Virus record (IMG/VR): IMGVR_UViG_3300024518_003458
Coordinates: 1-23,129 of that record
Strand: one strand, 5' to 3'
From: a virus
Length of the DNA stretch: 23,129 nucleotides
Shown here: one piece after another, positions 976 to 13,030 of the stretch
Layout of the letters: each line of letters starts with the position of its first letter
Numbering within the stretch: the first letter of the stretch is position 1
Notes under the pieces: generated by a model
The model's database searches: none
Told to the model about the DNA's origin: nothing
The model's input: the letters and a program-made list of their open reading frames with translations, nothing else
Made by a program: the position numbers and the translations under genes

Positions 976-1289
976 TATTTACCTCTCGTGATCATATCTA
1001 TAAAAGGATTGCCCGATCGCGTACCGTTTGCATTCTGTTTTGTCTGTTGTGCACGTGGTTTGTTATGAGCAGTCATTGATTTAAGTTTGGCTAATTTATC
1101 AGCCTGTGGAAATTGTGGACAAGCGCCAGCACCTTCGAACACACTAGATGCAATTCTGCGCAAGTCTGCAGCTTCTTCATTGCTAACATGAGCACTACCT
1201 ATTATCTCATTAACCAGATCATGTGCTTCTACACCATCGTAAGTAACTGGTGATGAGGTAATAGTGTCGTCTGTAATAATTTTAGTCAT
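975..1289 (-). CDS. Conserved-looking protein of unknown function, head module
   Basis: A 104-residue soluble protein that I do not recognise. The N-terminal half is acidic and Thr-rich, the middle (about residues 37-50, EEAADLRRIASSVF) looks helical, and the C-terminal third is basic and Asn/Gln-rich. It overlaps the preceding gene by four bases (ATGA) and the following gene by one base, so it is part of a coupled run of small genes between the small terminase and the portal. No membrane segment or cysteine motif is visible. Confidence 0.6.
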   Translation of the reverse strand: MTKIITDDTITSSPVTYDGVEAHDLVNEIIGSAHVSNEEAADLRRIASSVFEGAGACPQFPQADKLAKLKSMTAHNKPRAQQTKQNANGTRSGNPFIDMITRGK

Positions 1290-1711
1290 TTAATTTGCTC
1301 CACCCATAAACCAGCACCTTTGGATTCTTTTAATAATCGCTTATATAGCTGGTAAGGTGTAAAACACCAGCTATACCTTAATCCCATTGCATATAATACA
1401 AAGCTAATACAAGAATTGATTTGGAAAGTACGCTCAAAGCTATTTAATCTGGTATTAGTTACCTTTAGTATTTTATGTGATAACTCACCCCCATTTATTA
1501 GTAGTGGTAATGTTTTTGTTATATCTAACATAGCTGTTTCCAAACCATGTGGTGTTGGGTCTAGTTTCACACCCGTATTATTGCCTTTAAGCTGAATAAC
1601 GCAGACATGACCGTAATTCTTTTTGAGTAATCTTCCCATCCGTGTTGTAGATCTACCAAATATTACGTAGAACTCTTCTCGTCTGCTGCTGTAATACTCG
1701 TGTTTGTACAT
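1286..1711 (-). CDS. Phage protein with NlpC/P60- or papain-like features (tentative)
   Basis: A 141-residue protein. The pattern FYVIFGRS...RLLKKNYGHVCVIQ near the N-terminus (an HV/HC pair after a Gly) and INSCISFVLYAMGLR...TPYQLYKRLLK near the C-terminus resembles small podophage proteins in which a His and a Cys are spaced as in permuted NlpC/P60 or papain-like folds. Candidate catalytic residues are the His of GHV and the Cys of NSC. The ATG at 1711 has only a weak GGA-type ribosome site; a start at the internal MGRLLKK would drop the conserved-looking FYVIFGRS segment, so the longer form is preferred. The start overlaps the upstream gene by 49 bases. Enzymatic activity is unproven. Confidence 0.6.
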   Translation of the reverse strand: MYKHEYYSSRREEFYVIFGRSTTRMGRLLKKNYGHVCVIQLKGNNTGVKLDPTPHGLETAMLDITKTLPLLINGGELSHKILKVTNTRLNSFERTFQINSCISFVLYAMGLRYSWCFTPYQLYKRLLKESKGAGLWVEQIK

Positions 1712-1935
1712 AAACTATAATCCAACCAATGGTTTTTTTTAATCTCTAGTGGCAATTGTAGTGATATGTTTTCGTACCAATCTACAAATGCATGATTAGG
1801 TAGGTTTTGTAGCTTCGTAATCATTTTATCTTTCATACCTTCATATACTGGGAATGGTATAGTTTTATCTGCTCTAAGTTGTTTACATACCATCTTAATG
1901 CGCCCATCTATACACTCTTCAACACTCAGGGACAT
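1663..1935 (-). CDS. Unknown protein, packaging/head module
   Basis: A 90-residue protein without a family I can name. It begins MSLSVEECIDGRIKMVCKQL and is predicted mostly helical, with a Trp-containing middle (FVDWYENISLQLPLEI). It overlaps both neighbours (17 bases with the upstream gene, 49 bases with the downstream one), typical of a compressed phage operon. It could be a small virion or assembly factor; nothing in the sequence decides this. Confidence 0.55.
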   Translation of the reverse strand: MSLSVEECIDGRIKMVCKQLRADKTIPFPVYEGMKDKMITKLQNLPNHAFVDWYENISLQLPLEIKKNHWLDYSLCTNTSITAADEKSST

Positions 1936-2101
1936 AAATAACTATCCTTATATCATCTGCATTACCACTTTCTTTAGCTTTCTCAGCCTTAATTCTTGGT
2001 TTTTCGCTGATAGATAATAATTCCACCTGCCAGCTACTCGTATATGCTCGAGATTGATTAATTAAGTCACGAGCTTCTCTATAAGCATTCTTATTCAGCA
2101 T
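1919..2101 (-). CDS. Small unknown protein
   Basis: A 60-residue protein, positively charged in its middle (SEKPRIKAEKAKESG). Its ATG at 2101 overlaps the stop of the upstream gene in a TAATG arrangement, which supports translation by coupling. No motif is recognised. Confidence 0.55.
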   Translation of the reverse strand: MLNKNAYREARDLINQSRAYTSSWQVELLSISEKPRIKAEKAKESGNADDIRIVIYVPEC

Positions 2102-2583
2102 TAAGGAATCGCTACTCCAGTAAATTTATACCATGTGGTGCCGGTATATACGTATAACTCACCAGTTTCTACACGAAACCAAGCTTGCCCTTGAAACTTA
2201 CCATCAGCAGCGGCAGGCTCACCATTATTTCCAGCTATTGCCATACTATGCCAGTCTGTACCATTGCTAGCCATAGCTAGCTTAAGATCACTTGCATAAT
2301 GAGCTTCACCAGGTACATGTGTTGATGGAGCATTGGCATATGTAGTGGAATTAAGTACAACCTCACCAGAACCCCCACTTTTGCCAATAACTAGCCATGT
2401 AGTGCCATTCCAAGCCTGTAATGTATTAGGAGTTCCTAAGATGTTCACCATCAACACTAAGCTCTCACCGCTATTCACCTGCGCTTTAAGATCAGCTGGT
2501 ACATCATCTGTACTAGCGTATGTAGGCCAGATAGAGAACATGTCATATGCTAATAAATCAGCCTTGCTACCTTTAACTTTCAT
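2101..2583 (-). CDS. Putative minor virion/appendage protein with GTTW repeats
   Basis: A 160-residue protein with several short beta-type repeats of the pattern hydrophobic-x-x-G-T-T-W (LQAWNGTTWLVIG near residues 56-68 and LYVYTGTTWYKFTG near 143-156), a form common in tail-fibre and appendage proteins. The N-terminus MKVKGSKADLL matches MKIQDSKADVL of the next upstream gene (2593-2778), and both end with the Y-G-T-x-W motif, so they look like a short/long paralogous pair. Placement between small terminase and portal favours a particle component. Function is inferred from composition and repeats only. Confidence 0.6.
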   Translation of the reverse strand: MKVKGSKADLLAYDMFSIWPTYASTDDVPADLKAQVNSGESLVLMVNILGTPNTLQAWNGTTWLVIGKSGGSGEVVLNSTTYANAPSTHVPGEAHYASDLKLAMASNGTDWHSMAIAGNNGEPAAADGKFQGQAWFRVETGELYVYTGTTWYKFTGVAIP

Positions 2584-2592
2584 AACTTAATC

Positions 2593-2778
2593 CTATACAG
2601 ATGTAATCGCTTCCCAAGCTGTGCCGTTATATACGTTAAGCTTGTTAGTAGATGTATTGAATATAATCCTGCCTTTAGGCACATTGGTAAGAGCATCACG
2701 TTGAGCAGTGGTGTAATGTACAGGTTCAATACGCTGTTTGTTATTTAACACATCTGCTTTACTGTCTTGTATCTTCAT
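2593..2778 (-). CDS. Short paralogue of the GTTW-repeat virion protein
   Basis: A 61-residue protein. MKIQDSKADVLNNKQ at the N-terminus and KLNVYNGTAWEAI at the C-terminus mirror the two ends of the longer downstream protein (2101-2583), as if the latter gained internal repeats or this one lost them. It may be a minor structural or tail-fibre-like module. It lies four bases downstream of the small-terminase gene and is expected to be cotranscribed. Confidence 0.6.
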   Translation of the reverse strand: MKIQDSKADVLNNKQRIEPVHYTTAQRDALTNVPKGRIIFNTSTNKLNVYNGTAWEAITSV

Positions 2779-2782
2779 TTAA

Positions 2783-3313
2783 CTAATCTCCATGTTTAAG
2801 TTTATTAAGGGTATTCTTGAGTTCATCGGATAATTCTTGAAATTCTTGCACGCTAGCTTGGCTTTTAGCTGCCAAATCAAACACACGCACCATTGATTCT
2901 GCCTCTTCTGGCGTAATCTCTTCACGTATTAGCGCTTTAATAGTCAAACGCATATGTTCTAGCACGTCATCAGTATCAGCAGCACCAGGTATATGTACGG
3001 TTCGTCCCATTGCTTTAGGCTGACAGGCAAACTTAGTCATAAACTTGAACAAAGGCATGTTAAAATCTTTATTTGCTACGTTCTCACGGCCTAATTTCTG
3101 GTAATATCTATGCCTATTAAAGGCTGCAATCTTAAAAGCTTCGGAAAACACTGAGTGTTTATTAGCCCATTCATGCAATGTGTCTATGTGAACACCGATT
3201 TCATAAGCTATTTCGATATTGGTATAACCAAGTTTTCCCAGCTCCATAGCAAGTGGTGGGTGTTTAACCGGGTCATATTTAGATGGTCTACCTAATTTAG
3301 GTGTATCTGACAT
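2783..3313 (-). CDS. Terminase small subunit
   Basis: A 176-residue DNA-recognition subunit of the packaging motor, which selects the packaging start and hands DNA to the large subunit (14804-16153). It begins with GRPSKYDP and an N-terminal helix-turn-helix (about residues 24-62, GYTNIEIAYEIGVHIDTLHEWAN...FSEAF), the arrangement seen in Sf6-type small terminases. The C-terminal part is helical and charged, suited to oligomerisation. It is the first gene of the leftward structural cluster and is preceded by a near-consensus promoter (3342-3370). It lies far from the large terminase in this map, but the two would be in one late operon if the genome is circular. Confidence 0.83.
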   Translation of the reverse strand: MSDTPKLGRPSKYDPVKHPPLAMELGKLGYTNIEIAYEIGVHIDTLHEWANKHSVFSEAFKIAAFNRHRYYQKLGRENVANKDFNMPLFKFMTKFACQPKAMGRTVHIPGAADTDDVLEHMRLTIKALIREEITPEEAESMVRVFDLAAKSQASVQEFQELSDELKNTLNKLKHGD

Positions 3314-3341
3314 GCTTTACCTATGTAAAGTTGTTTTTAGT

Positions 3342-3370
3342 ATAGTAAGCGTACATTTAGGAGGTGTCAA
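3342..3370 (-). promoter_or_regulatory. Sigma-70-type promoter for the small-terminase/structural operon
   Basis: Read on the minus strand: TTGACA (3370-3365), a 17-base spacer, TACTAT (3347-3342). The same -35, spacing and -10 occur in the early plus-strand promoter at 8380-8408. The inferred start lies about 20 bases upstream of the terminase ATG. This suggests the late genes are read by host RNA polymerase. Confidence 0.68.
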
Positions 3371-3390
3371 ATTAGAAGTACATTAGGAGG
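3351..3390. repeat. Direct repeat GTACATT(T)AGGAGG, two copies
   Basis: GTACATTTAGGAGG at 3351-3364 and GTACATTAGGAGG at 3378-3390. The first copy fills the spacer of the leftward promoter; the second contains the Shine-Dalgarno AGGAGG of the plus-strand gene starting at 3400. The repeat could be an operator at the divergent start, or a remnant of a duplicated ribosome-binding region. Confidence 0.6.
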
Positions 3391-3399
3391 GTTTAAGTA

Positions 3400-3684
3400 A
3401 TGATAGTTAGAGAACTAATTGAGCAGCTAAATAGAATAAATCCGGAGTTGGAAGTGAACTTATATGGTTCCAAAGATCTAGTAGAAATACTTGTAAAAGA
3501 TGGCAGTGATCATAATGACTGCTTGTTATTTGGTGCGGAAGATACTGATGGTAGCGCTGATGTTCGTTATGATTGTGCTGCATATTATAAAATCGTCTAC
3601 AGTGAAATTCACAAGTTCTATCAAGATACAGAGCAAAGATGTACTGAGTGTAGTAAATATCTGGAAGATCACAATGCTAGTTAG
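3400..3684 (+). CDS. Small phage protein of the VRELIEQLNxINPELEV type
   Basis: A 94-residue acidic protein. The N-terminal motif MIVRELIEQLNRINPELEV is a recurrent start in small phage proteins of unknown function. A strong AGGAGG site lies nine bases before the ATG. The C-terminal part has a CxxC pair (QRCTECSKYLE, near residues 79-90) and a DxRYDCAAYYKI segment. It overlaps the next gene, a tandem paralogue, by 11 bases. It and its paralogue are isolated between two leftward operons, so they have their own transcription unit; no clear promoter is visible. Confidence 0.68.
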   Translation: MIVRELIEQLNRINPELEVNLYGSKDLVEILVKDGSDHNDCLLFGAEDTDGSADVRYDCAAYYKIVYSEIHKFYQDTEQRCTECSKYLEDHNAS

Positions 3685-3829
3685 GGAACTAATTGAAGAG
3701 TTAAATAACATAAATCCGGAGATAGAAGTTACTATAGATGGTCGTGAGATAGAGAACATAATTGTATATGATGATGATCTAGATACCGACGATACGGATT
3801 GCGTGTTAGTTAGCTGGGCATACAGTTAA
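3674..3829 (+). CDS. Tandem paralogue of the VRELIEQLN-type protein
   Basis: A 51-residue protein starting at the ATG inside the end of the preceding gene (ATGCTAGTTAG, stop TAG at 3682-3684). The frame is open further upstream, but homology to the neighbour begins exactly at this ATG: MLVRELIEELNNINPEIEV against MIVRELIEQLNRINPELEV. By hand the first 56 nucleotides match at 47 positions, so the duplication is fairly recent. The rest is strongly acidic (DDDLDTDDTD). Function unknown. Confidence 0.65.
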   Translation: MLVRELIEELNNINPEIEVTIDGREIENIIVYDDDLDTDDTDCVLVSWAYS

Positions 3830-3830
3830 T

Positions 3831-3989
3831 TTAATCCTTACTTTGACATCCATATTGTGGTTTATGCTTTCTAGCAGCTAGATAGGCAGATAAGCCTTTC
3901 TTATCGACTATTAAGCCACAATTGAGACACACGCAGCGCATACTATAGTATAACGTACATTTATTACATAATGGACATTTCGTAATCAT
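3831..3989 (-). CDS. Small zinc-ribbon-like protein
   Basis: A 52-residue reading frame (start ATG 3989, stop TAA 3831). It has CPLC at residues 5-8 and CLNC at 21-24, with further cysteines at 11, 19 and 48, then a basic C-terminus (LAARKHKP). Two CxxC pairs 12 residues apart are typical of a treble-clef or zinc-ribbon knuckle, which in phages often binds nucleic acid or a host enzyme. It ends one base from the convergent plus-strand gene. Ribosome site is weak (AGGG). Confidence 0.6.
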   Translation of the reverse strand: MITKCPLCNKCTLYYSMRCVCLNCGLIVDKKGLSAYLAARKHKPQYGCQSKD

Positions 3990-4068
3990 TAATTTTCCCT
4001 GTATAATAATATTGCCACATAGTACTAGCTACTAATGGATTGGGGTAACCGGTTTTATTGTGTGGCAC

Positions 4069-4440
4069 CTAAACTTGTACGTATGTATTCTGTATTTTAT
4101 CTGGTGGTTGATGATCTAATGCTTCAATAATCCACTTTAATGCTTGTCCTGAATATATATGCTCATTTACTACTCTAATTAATCTATATCCTATAATTGA
4201 TGCTGTATTGTATTTTTCACAGTCATCCGTAAACCCTTTGCCAGTTATATGTCTGCCTTTTGTCCATACACCGCCTTCTACCTCACACAGAAGTCCATCA
4301 TAAGGCCATGCAAAATCAGCTCGCCACTTACGTTTAGGATAAAACTTATATTCCATCTCTGGTAAGGGAAATCCTTCGGCTTTATGTAACAAATAGAACT
4401 GTTGGTATAAGTCTTTTTCAAGTTTGGACTGTGTGGGCAT
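4069..4440 (-). CDS. PD-(D/E)XK-type phage endonuclease
   Basis: A 123-residue protein resembling small phage nucleases related to VSR, DUF559 and VRR-NUC folds. Visible core: KFYPKRKWRADFAWP with Asp42, then LLCEVEGGVW with Glu53 and Glu55, GRHITGKGFTDDCEKYNTA (about 62-80) and GYRLIRV. In this fold an Asp and a Glu coordinate the metal ions; Lys76 could be the third catalytic residue. Likely roles in such phages are branch resolution, host DNA breakdown or restriction-like cleavage; which applies here is unknown. It is coupled by a TAATG overlap to the preceding gene (4440-4712). Confidence 0.72.
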   Translation of the reverse strand: MPTQSKLEKDLYQQFYLLHKAEGFPLPEMEYKFYPKRKWRADFAWPYDGLLCEVEGGVWTKGRHITGKGFTDDCEKYNTASIIGYRLIRVVNEHIYSGQALKWIIEALDHQPPDKIQNTYVQV

Positions 4441-4712
4441 TAATAATAGTCAGCTATTTCATAATCATTAGATAACTCAGTTAGTTTATCTCTGACACTC
4501 TGCAGTAGATCATATTCATTATGTTCATCGCTTACGCCTTCACCTTCGACTAACTTTCCACTCTCGTAATGAAATCCATACTTGATTACTCCACGTAAAT
4601 ATTGATCCATATCAAATAATAGGCTCATATAATCACCTACTTTCAACATATTGTAATGTAGCTGCTTTTCATCTGGTTCAGCAAGATCAAATTCTATTAT
4701 AGCTTTAGGCAT
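4440..4712 (-). CDS. Conserved small phage protein of unknown function (IEFDL family)
   Basis: A 90-residue acidic protein beginning MPKAIIEFDLAEPDE and containing LLFDMDQYLRGVIKYG (about residues 31-46), followed by a helical VRDKLTELSNDYEI tail. This order (short strand with EFDL, then a WxxDQYLR-like helix, then a C-terminal helix) is common to small proteins of many phages, none of known function as far as I recall. A good Shine-Dalgarno AAGGA lies eight bases before the ATG. Translationally coupled to the nuclease gene. Confidence 0.68.
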   Translation of the reverse strand: MPKAIIEFDLAEPDEKQLHYNMLKVGDYMSLLFDMDQYLRGVIKYGFHYESGKLVEGEGVSDEHNEYDLLQSVRDKLTELSNDYEIADYY

Positions 4713-4738
4713 GTGTGTGTCCTTTATGTGTATTAAGT

Positions 4739-4771
4739 TGAGCTGCCCCTATGGATTAAAAAGGCAGCTCA
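4739..4771. other. Nine-bp perfect inverted repeat in an intergenic gap
   Basis: TGAGCTGCC (4739-4747) and GGCAGCTCA (4763-4771) are perfectly complementary around a 15-base loop. Neither side is followed by a T-run, so it is not a standard terminator. On the minus strand it lies in the leader of the 4440-4712 gene; on the plus strand the loop reads ATGGATT. A processing site, regulatory hairpin or protein-binding site are all possible. Confidence 0.55.
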
Positions 4772-4816
4772 TGTAAACAACGCGCATAAGGAGTTCTCGT
4801 ATATGGCGTCGATTAA

Positions 4817-5137
4817 TTATATTGTTTGTGTGGGTGGTTGACAAGTAGTTAGGTCAATTTCCCTAATAATTAGCGGCACCTGATCTTTGGTTATTTTATT
4901 TACCCACTGTTGCTGACCTGCTAGACAGGCACTATAAGAATCACACTTTAATACGGTAATCTCTCTGTTAAGATTATAACATGGGTGAATGACTCTAACC
5001 TCATAGTGCTCCTTTGCACCTAATGTTACCCGAAATACACGTACCCACGCAGGGTATATCTTACCCTCAATAGATAGTCGTATCGTATTATAGAATATGC
5101 CACGTACTTTTCTCTCTTTAAAAAATCCATTTTCCAT
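4817..5137 (-). CDS. Unknown protein, distant paralogue of the 10623-10919 product
   Basis: A 106-residue soluble protein, beta-rich by pattern. The core WVRVFRVTLGAKEHYEVR...IHPCYNLNREITVLKCDSYSACLAGQQQWVNKI (written in parts) aligns with YIRTILANDKSKYNFHVQ...SHPLYRKGKYVALDSVRTCKEAIALHDGWVRKI of the plus-strand early gene at 10623. Shared features are the HP-x-Y turn, an aromatic strand before it, and a W(V)-K-I end. A phage-internal protein family used in both arms is suggested. No function is known to me. Confidence 0.6.
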   Translation of the reverse strand: MENGFFKERKVRGIFYNTIRLSIEGKIYPAWVRVFRVTLGAKEHYEVRVIHPCYNLNREITVLKCDSYSACLAGQQQWVNKITKDQVPLIIREIDLTTCQPPTQTI

Positions 5138-5157
5138 TTATAAACCTCCTGGTTAAT

Positions 5158-5652
5158 TTAAACATTTATATACTTAGCTGGAAACGTGCTCGGTGATATA
5201 GCATCACTATCAGTATTATCACTAACATCATCGCCCTCATCACTAATACTACCTTCTGGATGAGAGCAATAATTAAATAATGTAGTTGTTGATTCTGCGC
5301 GAGATCTTCTTGTTATAAATGCTTGGCGCCTATTTTCTGCTTCTTCATCTGTAAGATCCCTGAAGCCTTCCACGCTTATCTTTTTTTGACATAATGATGG
5401 CTCTACCATTCTATAACGAAAAATAAGTAGCCCAATTCCCAATACACCAAGCACACCTGCACCAACCGCACTAGCAAGTGATTCATTGCTTTGAAGACAA
5501 CTAGCTGGACAAGCAGGTGATGGCACACTTTGATTACCCTCTATCGCCTCTATTTGTATATGAAAACATGTGATTAAAACGTAAATACACGCAAATATAG
5601 AGACCGACCCTCCAGTTGATAATGCTACCTTACGTACTCTTTCCTTATTCAT
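5158..5652 (-). CDS. Two-pass membrane protein, unknown function
   Basis: A 164-residue protein with two hydrophobic segments: about residues 14-31 (VSIFACIYVLITCF) and 61-82 (AVGAGVLGVLGIGLLIF). Between them is a short loop with CPASC, which would face the periplasm and could form a disulphide. The C-terminal ~80 residues are polar, with an acidic Ser/Asp stretch (SDEGDDVSDNTDSD). Start supported by an AGGAGG-like site just upstream of 5652. Such proteins in phage accessory regions often alter superinfection or envelope properties, but no specific family is recognised. Confidence 0.6.
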   Translation of the reverse strand: MNKERVRKVALSTGGSVSIFACIYVLITCFHIQIEAIEGNQSVPSPACPASCLQSNESLASAVGAGVLGVLGIGLLIFRYRMVEPSLCQKKISVEGFRDLTDEEAENRRQAFITRRSRAESTTTLFNYCSHPEGSISDEGDDVSDNTDSDAISPSTFPAKYINV

Positions 5653-5685
5653 TTGCTATCCTCCTGATAATTATCGCAAAATATA

Positions 5686-5865
5686 TCATCGTCTCTTTAT
5701 CCTCATTCCACATATAATAGCCAAAGCCATTATCAATAATATTATCGCAGGTGGAGCATAAACAGGCAATAACACCAGCCACCATGACCAAGCTATATAC
5801 CCTGCAAGCTTACAAAATATGAACACTAGGCTAAGCAAAGGTAGATAAGTTAGATTAATCTTCAT
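5686..5865 (-). CDS. Small phage membrane protein (Fragile-X-F-type annotation group)
   Basis: A 59-residue reading frame, start ATG 5865 after an AGGAGG site, stop TGA 5686. Two membrane helices: residues 5-30 (including LVFIFCKLAGYIAWSWWLVLLP) and 38-53 (PPAIILLIMALAIICGM), with a basic end (RIKRR). The pattern KL-G-IAWSWWWVL-P is a hallmark of small phage membrane proteins often labelled transmembrane Fragile-X-F protein. Function unknown. It lies between two other leftward accessory genes. Confidence 0.7.
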   Translation of the reverse strand: MKINLTYLPLLSLVFIFCKLAGYIAWSWWLVLLPVYAPPAIILLIMALAIICGMRIKRR

Positions 5866-5892
5866 AAACCTCCTATTTAGTTTAGTTGTTGC

Positions 5893-6093
5893 CTAATTGG
5901 CAACAACTGAATCTCTAGATTTCATTCTTAACTCGCGCATAACTCCCTCAGACAGGACTTCAAAACCAGCTTCTTGGAGGCTTTGGTTCCATAACCTTTT
6001 CAACTCTTCAATCTTCGCAATCTCTTTTATAATGCTAAAATATTGATCATTTTCTCTGTTATATATATACACATCATCTAAAATATCACTCAT
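5893..6093 (-). CDS. Small unknown protein, first gene of leftward accessory operon
   Basis: A 66-residue charged protein, probably one long helix or helical pair (IIKEIAKIEELKRLWNQSL, then EVLSEGVMRELRMKS). It begins directly beside the gene-free region 6094-6715, so its transcript start must lie there; a weak candidate promoter is at 6129-6157. Not recognised. Its neighbour position to a possible origin or RNA gene is the only functional hint. Confidence 0.5.
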   Translation of the reverse strand: MSDILDDVYIYNRENDQYFSIIKEIAKIEELKRLWNQSLQEAGFEVLSEGVMRELRMKSRDSVVAN

Positions 6094-6108
6094 ATCGCAC
6101 CGATTCTT

Positions 6109-6180
6109 CTATCCACAACTAATACAAACTTATACATTTTTATACATATACTATTAACATATACTTAAATATCTATAACC
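6109..6180. other. AT-rich patch with DnaA-box-like sites; candidate origin element
   Basis: Positions 6121-6180 have 10 G/C in 60 bases by hand count (17%), then the sequence changes abruptly to about 46% G/C. CTATCCACA at 6109-6117 differs from the DnaA consensus TTATCCACA by one base. TTATACATT (6130-6138) and TTATACATA (6140-6148) form a direct repeat, the second fitting the relaxed TTATNCANA. Such a patch could be an unwinding element, but it is also a plausible promoter region. Confidence 0.35.
6129..6157 (-). promoter_or_regulatory. Weak candidate promoter for the leftward accessory operon
   Basis: On the minus strand TTAATA (6157-6152), 17-base spacer, TATAAG (6134-6129) preceded by TG. 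It would start transcription about 30 bases before the ATG at 6093. The surrounding DNA is so AT-rich that chance matches are likely. Confidence 0.3.
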
Positions 6181-6199
6181 CTTGAACAGATAGAGTGAT

Positions 6200-6540
6200 T
6201 TAGACAAATACTCACCTAGGGGATGCTACTGCTAACATCCACCTAGTGATTGTCTAATGTGACATCTATGTGACCTATAACCCCGTCACAGCATATCGCT
6301 CATTAGTCCATGGCTATTACTACTTCCCATGTTATAGCTATTACGCCTGTAGCCAGGCCCCATCCTAGGTTAGCTATGCCCTATATATAGGGTCACTCAT
6401 GTCTATTAGGCTCTGGATAGTCCACACACGGTAGCCTATTGATCACCTTAATAGATGGCTGTAGAGGGAGTGGCAACAAACGTGGGGGTAAGATGCCGTA
6501 CTACAACCATCTGCTAAGATGATCTACAATTAACCCCCGC
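6200..6540. ncRNA. Structured gene-free region, candidate noncoding RNA or origin/packaging site
   Basis: No credible reading frame. G/C is 138 of 300 at 6241-6540 by hand count, well above nearby genes. Inverted repeats follow one another: TTAGACAA/TTGTCTAA (6200-6207, 6250-6257) enclosing TCAC/GTGA, TAGG/CCTA and GGATG/CATCC; TGTGAC/GTCACA (6258-6263, 6285-6290); ATAGCTA/TAGCTAT (6334-6340, 6371-6377) enclosing GCCTG-TAGC-CAGGC (6345-6358); CCCTATATATAGGG (6379-6392); TAGGCT/AGCCTA (6407-6412, 6433-6438); and the 6454-6540 element. Covariation-type hints (G.U where the other strand would mismatch) slightly favour plus-strand transcription but conflict in one stem, so orientation is left open. 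Confidence 0.5.
6454..6540 (+). other. Possible H-type pseudoknot
   Basis: GATGGCTGTAG (6454-6464) pairs with CTACAACCATC (6501-6511) at 10 of 11 positions, with GGCA/TGCC (6472-6475, 6494-6497) nested inside. The loop segment GTGGGGGT (6482-6489) can pair with ACCCCCGC (6533-6540) downstream, including one G.U if transcribed rightward. Stem plus loop-to-downstream pairing is the pseudoknot arrangement. On the minus strand the first stem would be perfect (G.U) but the second would lose a pair. Confidence 0.5.
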
Positions 6541-6542
6541 CA

Positions 6543-6560
6543 CAGTACTTTTTGTACTTC
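6543..6560. promoter_or_regulatory. Operator-like palindrome, copy 2
   Basis: CAGTACTTTTTGTACTTC: AGTAC (6544-6548), five bases, GTACT (6554-6558). It matches 14 of 16 bases of the site at the repressor switch (AGTAC-ACTTT-GTACT-T, 8366-8381). It lies 38 bases upstream of the -35 of the promoter at 6596. Probably bound by the same regulator, most simply the Cro-like protein (8118-8345). Confidence 0.55.
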
Positions 6561-6578
6561 TCACGAGTTAAAGGGCTA

Positions 6579-6650
6579 AAAAATAAACTATTATGTTGAA
6601 ATCTTTGATTGGGTATGTATAATCTGAGACTCATAACGTAGTTTATTTTT
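6579..6650. repeat. Inverted repeat framing a promoter
   Basis: AAAAATAAACTATTATG (6579-6595) and CATAACGTAGTTTATTTTT (6632-6650) are exact reverse complements over 17 bases apart from a two-base CG insertion in the right arm. The 36 bases between them hold both elements of the promoter at 6596-6623. The right arm would be at the 5' end of the RNA. Confidence 0.75.
6596..6623 (+). promoter_or_regulatory. Sigma-70-type promoter for a putative small RNA
   Basis: TTGAAA (6596-6601), 16-base spacer, TATAAT (6618-6623). The -10 is a perfect consensus. No reading frame follows before the terminator at 6681-6717, so the product should be a noncoding transcript of about 90 nucleotides. Confidence 0.65.
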
Positions 6651-6717
6651 GATAGCAGAAAAAAATATACCACTACTTGAAAGCCCTGGCAAGCTAAGTT
6701 ATGTCAGGGCTTTTTTT
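6630..6717 (+). ncRNA. Putative small RNA of about 90 nucleotides
   Basis: Bounded by a consensus promoter and an intrinsic terminator with a run of seven T. The body carries an A-rich single-stranded stretch (GCAGAAAAAAATATA around 6655-6669) and a U-rich tail, features often used by Hfq-dependent RNAs. It has no GGA motif, so a CsrA-sponge role is not supported. Its last bases are antisense to the end of the leftward gene 6716-6940. Not a family I recognise. Confidence 0.5.
6681..6717 (+). terminator. Intrinsic terminator, likely bidirectional
   Basis: AAGCCCTG (6681-6688) pairs with CAGGGCTT (6705-6712); the stem can extend by three pairs inward (G.U, C-G, A-U), followed by T to 6717. Read on the minus strand it is preceded by an A-run and followed only by CTTTC, so it is weaker there, but it directly follows the stop of the 6716-6940 gene. 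Confidence 0.8.
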
Positions 6718-6940
6718 ATGAATAGTATGGTGCGCACGCTTTGCCAAAAGCTGAATGGCTAGTATAAATTGACTTATCACCTTTTTTATCATTAATACCA
6801 TGTATTACAACACTTTTTGCGTTAGTCTCATTCTTCAGGCCATATATTAGCCGAGAATATCTTAGTTCTTTCTCTTTAATTTTGATCGTAAGTGAGTGTA
6901 ATATGTCATCAATATATACTGTTATATAATAATATTTCAT
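6716..6940 (-). CDS. Small unknown protein, last gene of the repressor operon
   Basis: A 74-residue protein with alternating strand-like N-terminus (MKYYYITVYIDDILHSLTIKIKEKEL) and a basic middle. Its ATG overlaps the stop of the 6937-7068 gene (ATGA). Its stop codon abuts the hairpin terminator. No family recognised. Confidence 0.55.
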   Translation of the reverse strand: MKYYYITVYIDDILHSLTIKIKEKELRYSRLIYGLKNETNAKSVVIHGINDKKGDKSIYTSHSAFGKACAPYYS

Positions 6941-7068
6941 TTAAACGCCTCCGCTGGTTCTAATTCACCATCTATAAAAAGCCAATGCCTTTTAATTGAT
7001 TTGGTTGTCGCTTTCTCATATGTGCTTATCTGGTACCAATTCACTGTCAACCACCTTCCACCAGCCAT
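6937..7068 (-). CDS. Micro-protein coupled on both sides
   Basis: A 43-residue reading frame. The ATG (7068-7066) shares a base with the stop of the upstream zinc-type gene (TAATG) and its TGA overlaps the ATG of the next gene (ATGA). This double coupling is the main evidence that it is translated. Sequence is Trp-rich with basic stretches (MAGGRWLTVNWYQIS, then KRHWLFIDGELEP). Function unknown. Confidence 0.5.
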   Translation of the reverse strand: MAGGRWLTVNWYQISTYEKATTKSIKRHWLFIDGELEPAEAFK

Positions 7069-7187
7069 TAATAATGGCTAGTTTTAACTTTTCTACATAT
7101 CATACATTTCATATATACTGTAGTACTTGATTCGACCCAACAGTCTGTACTTAATATCTTCCATTCATGACCTAATAAGCATTTCAT
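7068..7187 (-). CDS. Small Cys/His protein, possible zinc finger
   Basis: A 39-residue frame: MKCLLGHEWKILS at the start, then KCMICRK near residues 27-33. One Cys/His cluster (Cys3, His7) plus CxxC (Cys28, Cys31) could bind a single zinc ion. Very short phage proteins of the C-x-x-GH-W...CxxC type are common. It starts three bases before the stop of the upstream gene's intergenic gap and is coupled to the next gene by TAATG. Confidence 0.5.
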   Translation of the reverse strand: MKCLLGHEWKILSTDCWVESSTTVYMKCMICRKVKTSHY

Positions 7188-7189
7188 GA

Positions 7190-7489
7190 TTAACACCTTC
7201 TTAGTTTAGGGTAATTTTCTTTGGCTGAAGTATCTACTAATTCACATTTAAAGATTTTCTCTTGAATTGAACTCTTTATTAGGGCAAACGTTACAAATGC
7301 CTCAACTTCATTCTGAGTAGTATAATTAACTAGCGCAATATTTTTACCTTTATACTTATTAGCATACTGGCAAGTAAAGTAATATATGCCCGTACTTAAG
7401 CACCTAGTCAGCCATACCGTCACATCGTCTGATTGGTGATAACGCATTAATCTACGTGGTATTGGTTTAAATATCTTGTGATTCTCCAT
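7190..7489 (-). CDS. Unknown protein, possible third member of the phage's HP-turn family
   Basis: A 99-residue protein. VWLTRCLSTGIYYFTCQY...YKGKNIALVNYTTQNEVEAF weakly resembles the cores of the 4817-5137 and 10623-10919 products (basic/aromatic strand, YxxK-G-K-x-x-AL turn, then a helix). The similarity is too faint to be sure. Basic overall. It is the fourth gene of the leftward repressor operon. Confidence 0.5.
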   Translation of the reverse strand: MENHKIFKPIPRRLMRYHQSDDVTVWLTRCLSTGIYYFTCQYANKYKGKNIALVNYTTQNEVEAFVTFALIKSSIQEKIFKCELVDTSAKENYPKLRRC

Positions 7490-7492
7490 AGT

Positions 7493-7915
7493 TTATCCTT
7501 TTTTTAGTTGTTTAGTGATTTCGAGGTAAGATATATCATTTTTAATATTTCTTATTGTGTAATATGAACGCTTATACTTTAACATGAGATCAGGCACAGA
7601 CAGCTTAGAACGATAGATATCTATAACCTGTGCTTGTGTTAGCCTAGGTATGGTTTGGGGCGCTCCTAGTCCTCTAGTTGCAAATGACCATGCCTTACGC
7701 TGCTTGATATGAGAAACCGTAGCAAGACAAATCCCATATTCAGCAGCAATAATATCTCTTGGCCTAGTATCCTTATAAATAGCTACAGCCTTATTATTTG
7801 TTAATTTAGCATTTCTAATTCGTTTCTTACCTTTAAACTTCTTATTATATGATACATTATTTAGGAAAGTTTCATTGGCTAAATCTGCCTTTGCACATGC
7901 ATCCTTAAAATCCAT
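7493..7915 (-). CDS. DNA-binding protein with two helix-turn-helix segments
   Basis: A 140-residue basic protein. Two similar units are visible: residues about 37-76 (KLTNNKAVAIYKDTRPRDIIAAEYGI...LATVSHIKQRKAW) and 91-135 (RLTQAQVIDIYRSKLSVPDLMLKYKRSYYTIRNIKND). Both follow the LT-x-x-x-V-x-x-IY ... A/L-x-Y ... TV/TI-x-x-IK pattern of small resolvase-like or HNH-associated HTH modules, so it is a tandem HTH protein without a catalytic domain. Its start overlaps the upstream stop by one base at 7915. Likely a regulator or an origin-binding protein; targets unknown. Confidence 0.7.
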   Translation of the reverse strand: MDFKDACAKADLANETFLNNVSYNKKFKGKKRIRNAKLTNNKAVAIYKDTRPRDIIAAEYGICLATVSHIKQRKAWSFATRGLGAPQTIPRLTQAQVIDIYRSKLSVPDLMLKYKRSYYTIRNIKNDISYLEITKQLKKG

Positions 7916-8121
7916 TATACCTCCTCAATCTTTTTGCGCCTTTTACTCTCTAACTTCTTTAACCGCCTATCAAAATCAATTAAATGCGCCGTGATCATAT
8001 TTAGCGCTTTATCTAAGCCTTTCCATTGCTCGAGCATTATTTCATGCGTACGGTTAGTACTAAATGCTGTAAATGTACAGCTAATAAACTCTGCTATCTC
8101 TTTTTCACTTAGTTTTTTCAT
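7915..8121 (-). CDS. Small helical protein, possible coiled coil
   Basis: A 68-residue protein: MKKLSEKEIAEFISCTFTAF, then a long amphipathic C-terminal helix ending LKKLESKRRKKIEEV. Probably dimeric. It overlaps the Cro-like gene by four bases (ATGA at 8118-8121), so the two are made together; a partner or cofactor of the repressor is possible but not shown. Confidence 0.55.
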   Translation of the reverse strand: MKKLSEKEIAEFISCTFTAFSTNRTHEIMLEQWKGLDKALNMITAHLIDFDRRLKKLESKRRKKIEEV

Positions 8122-8345
8122 TCATTTATTCCTTTATAGCTGAACATCTCTTCATATGTTACTTCTCCTTTACTATGTTGATGTATTTTGACAGCAACAG
8201 GCCCTGGTATTCTTCTCCTACGCGAAGCATACGAAAGTAACGTCTCTTTAGTTACGCCTATTTCAGCCCCTATATAAGCTGTATATCTGTTTTTCGACCA
8301 CTCCTTTTTAGCAGCTTCCTTTCTTAAGTACTCATCTAGGTTCAT
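8118..8345 (-). CDS. Cro/YdaS-like helix-turn-helix repressor
   Basis: A 75-residue DNA-binding regulator. The region about residues 17-62 (WSKNRYTAYIGAEIGVTKETLLSYASRRRRIPGPVAVKI) is a Cro/YdaS-type HTH followed by the usual E-x-x-x-G-x-VTYEEM tail. The frame is open upstream to 8399, but the ATG at 8345 has AAGGA eight bases before it, while the ATG at 8354 has its only purine run touching the codon; the longer forms would also place the operator inside the gene. It is the first gene of the leftward operon and faces the early operon. It should bind the AGTAC-N5-GTACT sites. Confidence 0.75.
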   Translation of the reverse strand: MNLDEYLRKEAAKKEWSKNRYTAYIGAEIGVTKETLLSYASRRRRIPGPVAVKIHQHSKGEVTYEEMFSYKGINE

Positions 8346-8364
8346 TTCTACCATCCTTAATAAA

Positions 8365-8382
8365 TAGTACACTTTGTACTTG
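8365..8382. promoter_or_regulatory. Operator-like palindrome, copy 1
   Basis: TAGTACACTTTGTACTTG: AGTAC (8366-8370), five bases, GTACT (8376-8380). It touches the -35 of the rightward promoter and lies within the expected leader of the leftward one, so a bound protein could block both. A further palindrome AGTACT lies at 8401-8406, across the rightward -10. Confidence 0.65.
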
Positions 8383-8408
8383 ACAATGAATATTACCATA
8401 AGTACTAT
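8380..8408 (+). promoter_or_regulatory. Rightward early promoter
   Basis: TTGACA (8380-8385), 17-base spacer, TACTAT (8403-8408). The -35 is perfect and the spacing optimal. The inferred start is near 8415, giving a short leader with GGAAGGAG before the ATG at 8447. It drives the 4.5-kb early operon. Confidence 0.78.
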
Positions 8409-8419
8409 GTAGATGTAAA
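8390..8419 (-). promoter_or_regulatory. Leftward promoter for the Cro-like operon
   Basis: On the minus strand TTTACA (8419-8414), 18-base spacer, TAATAT (8395-8390). It overlaps the rightward promoter, so the two polymerases would compete, a typical switch layout. Weaker than the rightward promoter. Confidence 0.5.
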
Positions 8420-8446
8420 CAACAACATAACTGGAAGGAGAATATC

Positions 8447-8872
8447 ATGGATCGTAAATATAGTAATTTTATCGGTAACTTAGAATATTTAGTTGATTGT
8501 CATGAAAGCTGGAGGGCTGTAGATGATGAACAAAGATTAGAAATATATAACTTATATGGTGAAACTAAAGAAGGAGTTAATTTATATAATGGATCACTTA
8601 AAGATGAAGGTATTAGAGAATCAGGCTTAGATATAGAGTTTTATACTTTGACTGCTAAACTATTATCAGATTTAGATACTTGTGAAAGTATTGAGGTTAA
8701 AAGTGAACTAATGGATGTTTTATTACAAATATTAGACCCAGCTTTATATTTGATTATGGAAGATTATTTTAATAGTGAGAAAGATAGTAGAGAAGTGGAA
8801 AAGTGTGATGATTTTCACCCAACTTTTGCTGAAGATCATGCTGATAGATTAGCTAACTATGGAGGGTTTTAA
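8447..8872 (+). CDS. Strongly acidic first protein of the early operon, unknown function
   Basis: A 141-residue protein with 33 Asp/Glu against 13 Lys/Arg by hand count. It is predicted mainly helical (YLVDCHESWRAVDDEQRLEIY, LTAKLLSDLDTCESI, ELMDVLLQILDPALYLIMEDYF). It is the first gene after the switch promoter and has a strong GGAAGGAG ribosome site, so it is expected to be made first and abundantly. Such early acidic proteins in phages can mimic DNA and inhibit host nucleases or polymerase; here that is only a hypothesis. Confidence 0.65.
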   Translation: MDRKYSNFIGNLEYLVDCHESWRAVDDEQRLEIYNLYGETKEGVNLYNGSLKDEGIRESGLDIEFYTLTAKLLSDLDTCESIEVKSELMDVLLQILDPALYLIMEDYFNSEKDSREVEKCDDFHPTFAEDHADRLANYGGF

Positions 8873-8874
8873 TC

Positions 8875-9189
8875 ATGGGAGTTATAGCTAGGTTATTTAA
8901 TATAGATGACAAGATGTATGGTAATGATATAGATAGGCTTGGAGAGTTGAGAGATCAGATTAAAGAGCTGAAGAAAGAGGAGGTAGAACTAAAAGAGAAG
9001 ATACTAGCTGCTAATAAGGATAGTGGTAAAGGTGATCGTTATATGATGATAGTTGAAGATTGTATGAGATCGGCTTTAGATGGAAAGATGCTAAAGTCGG
9101 TGTATGGTCAAACTTGGTATGATGACCATTCAAAAACTAATAAGTTTAAGAAGTTAATTATATGTAAACAACAAAGTAAGGAGTCATAG
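8875..9189 (+). CDS. Coiled-coil phage protein of the recombination-gene neighbourhood
   Basis: A 104-residue protein. IDRLGELRDQIKELKKEEVELKEKIL (about residues 19-45) is a clear coiled coil with heptad leucines. The second half (GDRYMMIVEDCMRSALDGKMLK...WYDDHSKTNKFKKL) is a small mixed domain. Similar two-part proteins occur near ERF-type recombination genes in other phages; their role is not established to my knowledge. The ATG is two bases after the previous stop. Confidence 0.62.
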   Translation: MGVIARLFNIDDKMYGNDIDRLGELRDQIKELKKEEVELKEKILAANKDSGKGDRYMMIVEDCMRSALDGKMLKSVYGQTWYDDHSKTNKFKKLIICKQQSKES

Positions 9190-9191
9190 AA

Positions 9192-9404
9192 ATGAGAGAG
9201 ATATCAACAGTAGAGGCAAGAGAGAATTTTTCAGAGCTGCTAAATATGGTAGCTTATGGAGGCAACAATACAGTGCTAACTAGAAGAGGTAAGCCGTTAT
9301 TAGCTTTGGTAACCTTATCGGACCTGCAAATGATCAATAAGCTTAAGAAAAGCCAGGAAAGTATAACTAATAGATTCACAGAGGTGAAAAATGGACAAGT
9401 ATGA
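9192..9404 (+). CDS. Phd/YefM-type antitoxin, no toxin partner seen
   Basis: A 70-residue protein. ISTVEARENFSELLNMVAYGG...TVLTRRGKPLLALVTLSDLQ is the Phd/YefM N-terminal dimerisation and DNA-binding fold: a first strand, a helix with R-x-x-F/L, a loop, then the RRGKP-x-x-A-V strand pair. In bacteria such proteins neutralise Doc, YoeB or RelE-type toxins through the C-terminal tail and autoregulate their operon. The tail here is polar (KKSQESITNRFTEVKNGQV). The next gene overlaps by 14 bases but has no toxin signature, so this looks like a lone antitoxin. Confidence 0.83.
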   Translation: MREISTVEARENFSELLNMVAYGGNNTVLTRRGKPLLALVTLSDLQMINKLKKSQESITNRFTEVKNGQV

Positions 9405-9660
9405 GCAAGAGATAGTTAAAATATTAGATCAAATTGCACCAATAATTGACTCACACCCAGTACCAACGGTAATAAGTGTTGCTTTTTCTTTGGTTGGTAC
9501 TTTAATACAAACTAGTATTACCAGATGTGATATACCTGTTATGACTGAACTTAGTGTAGCTTTAAATAGAATGATTATAATGCTTAGAAATGGAACGGAT
9601 AATCTTGATCTTACTTTGGATGATGAAATAGAGGATGATAATGATGACACGAAACATTAA
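9391..9660 (+). CDS. Unknown protein, first copy of a tandem duplication
   Basis: An 89-residue protein. Hydrophobic core PTVISVAFSLVGTLIQTSI...IPVMTELSVALNRMI and an acidic end DDNDDTKH. The next gene encodes a paralogue (IKLVINVAFSIVATVIETL...MPAIAEIEAGLRGL, ending DDNDATKH). The hydrophobic stretch is amphipathic-looking rather than clearly membrane-spanning. Its ATG has GAGG seven bases upstream inside the antitoxin gene. Not recognised. Confidence 0.6.
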   Translation: MDKYEQEIVKILDQIAPIIDSHPVPTVISVAFSLVGTLIQTSITRCDIPVMTELSVALNRMIIMLRNGTDNLDLTLDDEIEDDNDDTKH

Positions 9661-9940
9661 ACTTAATAAGGCTAAGCAAGAAGAATTAGAAAAATCAGTC
9701 AATGATGTAATGGTCATGCTAGATGGTAAGAGAATAAAGCTTGTTATAAATGTCGCTTTCTCTATTGTAGCTACCGTTATTGAAACACTAAAAGAAGATA
9801 AAGATATGCCGGCAATAGCTGAAATTGAGGCGGGTTTGCGCGGCTTAACTGAAGATCTTTCAGAGTGGACACTAAAACATATAACGACAATTATTAACGA
9901 TGTAACCAAGAAGGATGATAACGATGCAACCAAACATTAA
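9641..9940 (+). CDS. Unknown protein, second copy of the tandem duplication
   Basis: A 99-residue paralogue of the preceding product. Four ATG/ATA codons open the frame; the ATG at 9635 touches the GAGG ribosome site (9631-9634), so 9641 (or 9644) is the more likely start. The gene end and the start of the next gene repeat the previous junction: GATGATAATGATG against GATGATAACGATG, each followed by a similar AAACATTAA. Thus gene plus overlapping downstream start were duplicated together. Confidence 0.6.
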   Translation: MMTRNIKLNKAKQEELEKSVNDVMVMLDGKRIKLVINVAFSIVATVIETLKEDKDMPAIAEIEAGLRGLTEDLSEWTLKHITTIINDVTKKDDNDATKH

Positions 9941-10517
9941 CTTTAAATTAAGCGAATCTAGTACAGAGCTAACAAAAGCTTTATTTGAGATACAGAAAAA
10001 TATAGGTAAGCTCTATAAGAATACGGAGAATCCATTCCATAAAAGCAAATATGCTGATCTAACAGCCGTATTAAGTTTGGCCAAAGATCAGTTTAACGAG
10101 CATGGTATTTTATTAATACAAACTGCTATAACTACTGAAGGTAGAGCAGGAGTTATAACACGCTTAACACATAATACTAGCGGTGAATGGCTAGAAACCA
10201 CACTTCTACACTCATGTCCTAAGTCAGGACCCCAGCCAGAAGGAGCATGTATCACGTATGCGCGTAGATATTCATTGCTGGCACTATTAGGCTTGGCTCA
10301 AGAAGATAGCGACGGTGAGGGTGCTATGCTGCGTAAAACACAGATTAAAGCAGAGGATGCTCTATATGCAGCTAAGCAATTTACATCACAAGGAAAGCTA
10401 AAAGACTACATAAACTCACTAGATCCAGATTTGGTAGCGCAGATTAAGCCTGAATTAAAGCCAATCTGGAATAATTTTAATGTACCTGTGCAAAATACGG
10501 AGGTTGATGATGCTTGA
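9924..10517 (+). CDS. erf: ERF-family single-strand annealing recombinase
   Basis: A 197-residue protein that anneals complementary single strands in phage recombination and genome circularisation. ERF signatures: LTKALFEIQKNI near the N-terminus, NPFHKSKYADLTAVL (about 37-51), GILLIQTAI, GVITRLTHNTSGEWLET, then GACITYARRYSLLALLGLAQEDSDGEG (written in two parts; the ARRYSLLALLG core is the family hallmark). The ATG at 9924 is chosen because AAGGA lies eight bases upstream; an ATG at 9915 overlaps that site. It works with the SSB encoded 1 kb downstream. Confidence 0.92.
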   Translation: MQPNINFKLSESSTELTKALFEIQKNIGKLYKNTENPFHKSKYADLTAVLSLAKDQFNEHGILLIQTAITTEGRAGVITRLTHNTSGEWLETTLLHSCPKSGPQPEGACITYARRYSLLALLGLAQEDSDGEGAMLRKTQIKAEDALYAAKQFTSQGKLKDYINSLDPDLVAQIKPELKPIWNNFNVPVQNTEVDDA

Positions 10518-10623
10518 TTTATTTATGTTCATGGCATTCCTAATAGTATGTTTAGGACTATGCTGTATAGGTGCTTTTGTGTGCAATGTGTGTGAGAAAT
10601 TTTATAATAGAGGAGAGTGGTAA
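10510..10623 (+). CDS. Single-pass membrane micro-protein
   Basis: A 37-residue frame overlapping the end of erf. One hydrophobic helix with six cysteines (MAFLIVCLGLCCIGAFVCNVC) and a short polar end (EKFYNRGEW). GGAGG (10499-10503) is six bases before the ATG at 10510; an ATG at 10507 is possible. Its TAA overlaps the next ATG (TAATG). Coupling on both sides supports translation. Confidence 0.58.
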   Translation: MLDLFMFMAFLIVCLGLCCIGAFVCNVCEKFYNRGEW

Positions 10624-10919
10624 TGGAAAAATCAATGATGTTTAACTATGCGATATTAAAAGAGTATTCTTATAAAAATATATATATACGTACTATATTG
10701 GCAAATGATAAGTCTAAATATAATTTTCATGTTCAGCTAAGCCATCCATTATATCGTAAAGGCAAGTATGTAGCGCTAGATTCCGTTAGAACATGCAAAG
10801 AGGCTATTGCCTTACATGATGGCTGGGTTAGGAAGATTAGAAGTGATGAGGCTGATCAGTTTGTTCCTGAATATGACCTAACCGAAAACCATACTGCTTT
10901 ACATGGACCAAATAAATGA
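10623..10919 (+). CDS. Unknown protein, paralogue of the 4817-5137 product
   Basis: A 98-residue protein (MEKSMMFNYAILKEYSY start). A GTG at 10617 is in frame, but the ATG at 10623 has AGGAG seven bases upstream and overlaps the previous stop, so it is preferred. The middle (YNFHVQLSHPLYRKGKYVAL) carries the HP-x-Y turn shared with the leftward gene at 4817. The C-terminus is acidic with a His. Function unknown. Confidence 0.62.
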   Translation: MEKSMMFNYAILKEYSYKNIYIRTILANDKSKYNFHVQLSHPLYRKGKYVALDSVRTCKEAIALHDGWVRKIRSDEADQFVPEYDLTENHTALHGPNK

Positions 10920-11074
10920 GTAAAAACAAAATAAGCGAAGAAGAACTACTAATCCGCGAAAGCATTATTCAGTTGCATAAATCTTATATGATTCTTAAAG
11001 AGTTAGAATTTAGTTATAATGCAAGATTAACGCAACTAGAAAATGACGAAATTAAGGCTAAGGAAAAGAAATGA
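10916..11074 (+). CDS. Short helical protein
   Basis: A 52-residue frame with ATGA overlaps at both ends (10916-10919 and 11071-11074). Highly charged and helical: KNKISEEELLIRESIIQLHKS, then LEFSYNARLTQLENDEIKAKEKK. Heptad-like leucines suggest a small coiled coil. Not recognised. Confidence 0.55.
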   Translation: MSKNKISEEELLIRESIIQLHKSYMILKELEFSYNARLTQLENDEIKAKEKK

Positions 11075-11148
11075 TGTATATAGGCTTATCATTTGTAGTT
11101 ATTTTGTTTATAGTGTGGCTTTATTTAGAAGGCACGGGAAGATGGTAA
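11071..11148 (+). CDS. 25-residue membrane micro-protein
   Basis: MMYIGLSFVVILFIVWLYL followed by EGTGRW: one transmembrane helix with nothing else. Its ATG overlaps the preceding TGA (ATGA) and the next gene starts inside it at 11142. Size and overlap suggest coupled translation. Functions of such peptides in phages range from lysis inhibition to superinfection control; unknown here. Confidence 0.48.
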   Translation: MMYIGLSFVVILFIVWLYLEGTGRW

Positions 11149-11402
11149 GGTATGTAACTTGTAAAAAGTGCAAGTGGGTTAGTGTGGGATATTCTAAGGA
11201 TTTTGTAGTAAATGAAATTAATGAGTTTAATAATTACTATGATACTTTAGATGAAGAAACACAGGATCATTTTAGTGGCCGCTCTAGCTTAGAGAACTAT
11301 AAGTGTATTAATTGTAATGGTAAGCGATTTAAAATAGCCAGTACAAAAGATATAGAAAGAGTGGCCAACCGTACGTTATGTTCTGTTGTGTTTGAGGAAT
11401 AA
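11142..11402 (+). CDS. Zinc-ribbon phage protein
   Basis: An 86-residue protein starting at the ATG 11142 (the frame is open to 11043, but the upstream part is the out-of-frame reading of two overlapping genes). VTCKKCKWVSVGYSK (CxxC at residues 7-10) and YKCINCNGKRFK (CxxC at about 53-56) would coordinate one zinc. Between them is FNNYYDTLDEETQDHFSGR. This W-x-x-x-G-x-S...FN-x-Y-D-T-L pattern occurs in small conserved phage proteins of unknown role. Confidence 0.68.
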   Translation: MVRYVTCKKCKWVSVGYSKDFVVNEINEFNNYYDTLDEETQDHFSGRSSLENYKCINCNGKRFKIASTKDIERVANRTLCSVVFEE

Positions 11403-11403
11403 T

Positions 11404-11505
11404 GTGAAAACGATTGTAGAATTTATTGTATATATAGTGCCCAGCATGTTATTTGTGATTTTATTGATAATGCTAGTAATGCTTTGCTGTGGATACTTGA
11501 AATAG
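11404..11505 (+). CDS. 33-residue membrane micro-protein with GTG start
   Basis: KTIVEFIVYIVPSMLFVILL then IMLVMLCCGYLK: one hydrophobic helix. GTG at 11404 follows the previous stop directly, with GAGGA nearby; the overlapping ATG at 11402 is followed at once by TGA and cannot be used. It is the third single-helix peptide in one kilobase. Confidence 0.42.
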   Translation: MKTIVEFIVYIVPSMLFVILLIMLVMLCCGYLK

Positions 11506-11519
11506 TTGGAGATAATGAT

Positions 11520-11963
11520 ATGAAAACATTGCTTGATGCAGCTCACAATGGAGAAACTGTTACAGCAACCATAATGAAGGTTGAGCCTTACATAAGTAAA
11601 AAAGGTAATGCTACCTTGAAAATAGGCATGATATGTAAAGATACCGGTGGTTTTAAACTAGAAGGATGGATTACCCAGTACTTTTCACCTGCTGGAGAAT
11701 GGTTTAATCAGATGTTCTTAGATGCCTTATTTAAGCCTAGTAGGGTTCTATTTGAAGCTGATGACTGGATATATAATGAGAATGAGCTTAAATACAATAC
11801 TGCTAAATGCCAGCTAGGGCTTGAGGAATACAACGGTAAGATGTATCCCAAAGCTTCTAAATGGATAGCAGCCGCTCGTGATGATAAGCCTGCTAATACA
11901 ACTATCACTAGCAAGGCAAACCCAGAGCCAACCGATGATTTCGATGATGATATACCATTTTAG
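11520..11963 (+). CDS. ssb: Phage single-stranded DNA-binding protein
   Basis: A 147-residue OB-fold-type protein. TLLDAAHNGETVTATIMKVEPYISKKGNATLKI (start, in parts) and FKLEGWITQYFSPAGEWFNQMF give a beta-barrel pattern; the C-terminus is an acidic flexible tail ending DDFDDDIPF (139-147), matching the conserved tip by which proteobacterial SSBs recruit repair and replication enzymes. ATG 11520 is chosen because GGAG lies eight bases upstream; the frame is open to 11484 without a ribosome site. It lies 1 kb after erf, its natural partner. Confidence 0.82.
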   Translation: MKTLLDAAHNGETVTATIMKVEPYISKKGNATLKIGMICKDTGGFKLEGWITQYFSPAGEWFNQMFLDALFKPSRVLFEADDWIYNENELKYNTAKCQLGLEEYNGKMYPKASKWIAAARDDKPANTTITSKANPEPTDDFDDDIPF

Positions 11964-11986
11964 ATAAACAAAAGAGAAGAGAAGCA

Positions 11987-12199: not shown

Positions 12200-12203
12200 T
12201 ATT

Positions 12204-12446: not shown

Positions 12447-12472
12447 CAAGTTTAACAACAAAGGAGAAGAAA

Positions 12473-12796: not shown

Positions 12797-12799
12797 AAT

Positions 12800-12976: not shown

Positions 12977-12987
12977 TTGTTCTATGT

Positions 12988-13030
12988 GGAACTAGTAGGG
13001 TGTTATGCCCTGCTAGGTCCTTCTGTTTTA
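12988..13030 (+). terminator. Intrinsic terminator ending the early operon
   Basis: GGAACTAGTAGGG (12988-13000) pairs with CCCTGCTAGGTCC (13008-13020) with one mismatch and one G.U in the plus-strand RNA, seven-base loop, followed by TTCTGTTTTA. Read leftward it has two mismatches. It lies 11 bases after the csrA-like stop; the convergent late gene ends inside it. Confidence 0.7.

Follow-up and report, generated by a model that had tools for sequence, protein, structure and literature searches.

What is the role of a 622-nt gap without sizeable open reading frames (ORFs) inside the leftward operon of a phage? The gap lies at 6094-6715 of a virus record of 23,129 bases that has no end repeats (hereafter the window, the whole stretch of DNA that was analyzed), and it is the longest inter-ORF gap of the window, left end excepted. 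ORFs inside it reach at most 47 aa, which bears out the gene-free region described in an earlier note on this DNA. The gap is likely a functional two-RNA locus, with a long structured RNA predicted on the minus strand and a short one on the plus strand.

Genomic setting and composition of the gap

The gene layout of the window is lambda-like, with leftward genes from 8399 and rightward genes from 8447 (compare the lambda early operons), and Erf, a CsrA-like protein, and a Phd antitoxin are among its gene products. The RNA locus sits within the leftward operon, flanked by the minus-strand ORFs 6716-6940 and 5893-6093, and all genes neighboring it read on the minus strand. A packaging site, offered earlier as one option, finds no support in this position, as the gap adjoins neither terminase gene.

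The CsrA-like protein is encoded at 12800-12976 (PF02599, E 1.8e-13), and a similar small ORF occurs at 8487-8696 of G001, the relative described below. The Phd/YefM antitoxin (PF02604) is encoded at 9192-9404, with no evident toxin adjoining. ORFs 13003-13314 and 13314-13721 are adjacent, alike in motifs and possibly paralogues, and each has a counterpart in G001. The 140-aa protein encoded at 7493-7915 shows 31-33% identity to the DNA-binding part of staphylococcal phage HNH endonucleases; its single-sequence structure prediction, with a pLDDT of 35, was unusable.

The gap, two features in it, and the terminase genes are located as follows:
6094-6715: whole intergenic RNA locus, 622 nt, from the ORF lists and a gap scan
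6117-6176: AT-rich patch, 15% GC (no 60-mer of the window has less), at the 3′ end of the predicted long RNA
6109-6117: DnaA-box-like site CTATCCACA
2783-3313 and 14804-16153: terminase genes

The segment 6241-6540 has 46.0% GC compared with 36.8% for the genome, a level met by 0.3% of 300-nt windows, and this GC island adjoins the AT minimum of the window. The earlier estimate of about 46% G/C beside an AT-rich patch is thus accurate. The top strand-neutral stem of the whole window, 6437-6464/6501-6528, also falls here; it scores 41, whereas neither 12 shuffles of the whole window nor 300 of the region gave more than 35. In count the stems are ordinary: 5 were observed, the shuffled mean being 3.3, and 58 of the 300 region shuffles reach this number. 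The packed stems of the earlier note are therefore present, and one of them is the strongest in the window, but their number is unexceptional.

Folding strength and strand

The fold of 6180-6660 has a z-score of -5.0 on the minus strand vs. about -3.3 on the plus strand (200 shuffles). Among 94 windows of 480 nt, the minus-strand 6180-6660 ranks first (z -4.8), the remaining windows having a mean z of -0.26, a standard deviation of 1.15, and a minimum of -3.3; a further fold scan used windows of 120 nt, which are shorter than the long stems need. Strand-neutral stems contain 12 G-U pairs when read on the minus strand vs. 2 on the plus strand (P 0.025, composition-corrected). Together, the G-U asymmetry and the fold z-scores are modest evidence for a minus-strand RNA.

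The same asymmetry bears on whether the hairpins work as DNA, in a double-stranded origin or a recombination site. This explanation is improbable, since DNA hairpins do not need G-U pairs that favor one RNA strand. It can draw on the 60-mer of 15% GC adjoining the hairpins and on the single DnaA-box-like site, CTATCCACA, at 6109-6117. However, the window has no excess of DnaA-like sites (6 vs. 7.9 expected), and no iterons or direct repeats like those in the initiator gene of G001 occur in window 4400-9000.

Two predicted transcripts facing each other

The predicted minus-strand transcript and its parts are:
6100-6656, minus: predicted long structured non-coding RNA with its 5′ end at ~6656, from the fold z-score, the rank among 94 windows, and the G-U bias
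6664-6692, minus: candidate promoter TTGCCA-17-TATATT with a TG extended -10, from its match to the consensus, predicted start ~6656
6575-6656, minus: 5′ hairpin of the long RNA, arms 6656-6632 and 6595-6575, 21 bp plus an inner 9 bp
6436-6529, minus: central long hairpin, 27 bp including 5 G-U on the minus strand and 21 bp on the plus strand, the strongest stem of the window
6200-6257, minus: hairpin UUAGACAA/UUGUCUAA plus a 16-bp upper stem

The predicted minus-strand start at ~6656 coincides with the base of the 21-bp hairpin. No terminator was found for the 3′ end of the long RNA. A possible helix, 6660-6651/6113-6104, would close the RNA domain immediately upstream of ORF 5893-6093.

The predicted plus-strand unit comprises:
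6596-6623, plus: promoter TTGAAA-16-TATAAT, matching 11 of 12 positions, the best sigma-70 match in a 4-kb scan, predicted start ~6630
6630-6714, plus: predicted small RNA of ~85 nt, from the promoter and terminator pair
6679-6714, plus: intrinsic terminator, a GC-rich stem followed by T7, the only pass of a strict scan in the window (0.02 expected)

Such a promoter-terminator pair occurs in none of 100 shuffled windows. The 3′ end of the small RNA abuts the stop codon of ORF 6716-6940 without overlapping it, and at their predicted 5′ ends the small plus-strand RNA and the long minus-strand RNA are perfectly complementary over ~27 nt. Transcription of both RNAs is predicted from signals that match consensus sequences. 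The plus-strand small RNA is probably real, and the structured RNA nearly as probably so.

A structured RNA is the best reading of the gap because of the fold z-scores, the strand asymmetry, and the adjoining complete small-RNA transcription unit. The same evidence partly supports the interpretation given in the earlier note, which had missed the minus strand, the plus-strand unit, and the extent to ~6715. The interval that it gave, 6200-6540, is structured but too short, as the structure reaches ~6660 and the terminator hairpin occupies 6680-6714.

Searches for related RNAs

No tRNA or tmRNA was found by scanning, and no Rfam family matched the locus at either gathering or relaxed thresholds, in keeping with the earlier statement that the region is not a tRNA and belongs to no known RNA family. 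A blastn search of the RNA locus against phages and plasmids, a method that needs fair similarity, gave nothing or chance matches. Three exact 16-17-mers of the RNA were present in 23, 29, and 0 contigs of IMG/VR, with unrelated flanks, and 369 genomes of one bacterial class yielded two short AT-rich matches, which were taken as chance. The RNA thus has no sequence homologue in the collections searched (phages, plasmids, IMG/VR patterns, and the 369 bacterial genomes).

The lack of homologues, together with the resemblance of the neighbor at 7493-7915 to the DNA-binding part of HNH endonucleases, is what would be cited for decayed, functionless sequence left over from genes or a mobile element. 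That origin is very improbable given that the best promoter-terminator pair, the strongest stem, and the best fold of the window all coincide at the locus.

Two further candidates were considered. A CsrA-titrating RNA of the RsmY/Z kind was rejected, as GGA occurs below chance on both strands (6 vs. 8.5 expected on the minus strand, 3 vs. 5.3 on the plus strand). An immunity RNA of the P4 type is unsupported, since the complementarity of the small RNA to phage translation starts is no better than chance (50 of 100 shuffles equal it), and none of its possible targets in trans stood out from shuffles. The locus does share with the P4, P1, and N15 immunity RNAs and with the PLE inverted-repeat transcript the character of a phage or satellite non-coding RNA with internal inverted repeats, but unlike the immunity RNAs its short RNA has no significant complementarity to translation starts; abundant phage non-coding RNAs are known in ICP1 and PLE (PMC7567579).

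GOLLD and ROOL are abundant, ornate RNAs without a known function that are often found near tRNA islands. The RNA predicted here could be a large stand-alone phage RNA similar to them and uncoupled from replication, which its size of ~0.5 kb, its phage setting, and its dense folding would suit, as large RNAs of this type are known from phages and prophages (PMC12286853). This is nevertheless unlikely: the long, highly folded, phage-encoded RNA gives no match to the covariance models of GOLLD, ROOL, or other Rfam families, and no tRNA lies nearby.

Comparison with a close relative

TerL relatives of the window are mostly 30-38% identical. Searches with TerL and virion proteins gave one close relative, G001 (33,610 bases), with a TerL identity of 51% and gene order in common on both sides. 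Window 1286-4440 is syntenic with G001 29563-32486, and window 8447-23110 with G001 5707-19015; the window fragment is without the ~10 kb matching G001 19015-29563, where structural genes lie in G001. Between the syntenic blocks, the early operon of G001 carries a DnaD-like initiator (phrog_186, E 4.7e-7) and a G39P-like loader (PF11417, over the cut-off). Profile searches found these two kinds of gene in G001 and neither of them in the window fragment. Because the ~10 kb are missing from the window, an initiator could be encoded elsewhere in the phage.

Other features of G001 were also observed. Its adjacent ORFs at 496-1992 and 1977-2738, also between the syntenic blocks, resemble, by eye, NAMPT and PRPP synthetase of NAD+ salvage. 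Two 24-nt direct repeats lie inside its DnaD-like gene (L169 17835-17882); they resemble those of a classical origin and are a possible origin of G001.

Closer to the locus, window 5686-5865 and G001 32490-32672 encode weakly similar small membrane-like proteins of 59 and 60 aa (E 9e-7 in one comparison). Upstream of this gene, the window has ORF 5893-6093 and then the RNA locus, and in G001 degenerate hexamer repeats fill ~870 nt; the RNA locus and the repeat array are unlike in sequence. The G001 array, at 32723-33610 (L241 12723-13610), has a TRF period of 6 with 144.5 copies and runs off the contig end. Four mini-ORFs lie in it, each with the pattern MNIFMM..(Ser-X)n, and they have a conserved junction of 33 nt. 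Three of them end in SVK and overlap the next ATG at ATGA, and one ends in GR. The minus strand of the array has a z-score of -11.9, dinucleotide shuffles being a poor control for a repeat.

The idea that the RNA locus is an exact replacement of the G001 initiator genes is weakened by the presence of the repeat array at the equivalent place. The locus adjoins the 59/60-aa gene and is not exactly at the position of the initiator and loader in G001, a point against the replication reading given below.

Possible replication control or regulation of the operon

Among the closest known systems, two include a short antisense RNA. In ColE1, 555 bp separate the start of RNA II from the origin downstream (PMC11012335). 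Like ColE1 RNA II and RNA I, the locus would pair a long, structured ~0.5-kb RNA with a short one that is read the other way near its 5′ end; ~480-550 nt beyond the point where the long RNA is predicted to start, the DNA is AT-rich, and no initiator gene is seen in the window. Going by the predicted starts, the two RNAs would share ~27 nt and not, as in ColE1, the full length of the short RNA. The locus also differs in lying in a phage, in having no Rfam or plasmid match, and in having no Rom-like protein among its neighbors, ORF 5893-6093 (66 aa) being without a Pfam match. The Rom/Rop protein is dispensable in ColE1, whose type of replicon is further marked by an RNA-DNA hybrid and by RNase H cleavage at the origin.

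Lambda oop overlaps cII and lies beside O (PMC5869508). Like OOP, the small RNA is short (~85 nt), has its own predicted promoter and terminator, is antisense to a cro-like early operon, and would stop where a small gene ends. Unlike with OOP, no O gene adjoins and no O homologue is present in the window, the small RNA complements the start of a long RNA and not the 3′ part of a cII gene, and no test of homology was positive.

The resemblance to oop leads to regulation within the operon, with no role in an origin. The leftward early mRNA would carry the long minus-strand segment before ORF 5893-6093, as a 5′ leader or a processed spacer, and the plus-strand RNA would be an OOP-like antisense acting through mRNA cleavage or through interference between face-to-face promoters. 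This is quite possible, if short of probable. The minus strand is the sense strand of all neighboring genes, the plus-strand RNA would run against the operon and end where ORF 6716-6940 has its stop codon, an arrangement comparable to that of lambda oop at cII, and the helix 6660-6651/6113-6104 would close the domain right before ORF 5893-6093. However, a leader of ~550 nt with no sizeable ORF would be a long one, and the oop-like overlap falls on the 5′ end of the long RNA itself, while the upstream gene is only abutted by the 3′ end. A regulatory leader with an OOP-like antisense is about as likely as replication control.

The best explanation overall, a tentative one, is a two-RNA non-coding locus in the leftward early operon whose most likely role, though weakly backed, would be replication control or priming. 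Three points put replication control first among the mechanisms: the operon belongs to the initiator-loader kind, the window shows no initiator, and the RNA is followed by AT-rich DNA. An RNA of ~500-550 nt would be read leftward from ~6656 and fold into a series of stable hairpins, and an RNA of ~85 nt would be read rightward from 6630 to the intrinsic terminator at 6714. The short RNA may pair with the 5′ hairpin arm of the long RNA and alter its folding, and the two together would regulate DNA replication as RNAs, or prime it, from the AT-rich patch at 6117-6176. Taken by itself, a replication role of the locus, as an RNA-based origin or a replication-control element, is doubtful.

Implications

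Large structured RNAs of phages are few, and their function is mostly not known. If real, the locus would add a large phage RNA candidate with a defined strand, a promoter, and an opposing small RNA. There is a small chance that a tailed phage here primes or controls its replication by means of two opposing RNAs, one long and structured and one short, replacing the initiator and helicase-loader proteins of its relative. Were the RNA to replace protein initiators, it would mean that a tailed phage can switch from protein-based to RNA-based replication control.
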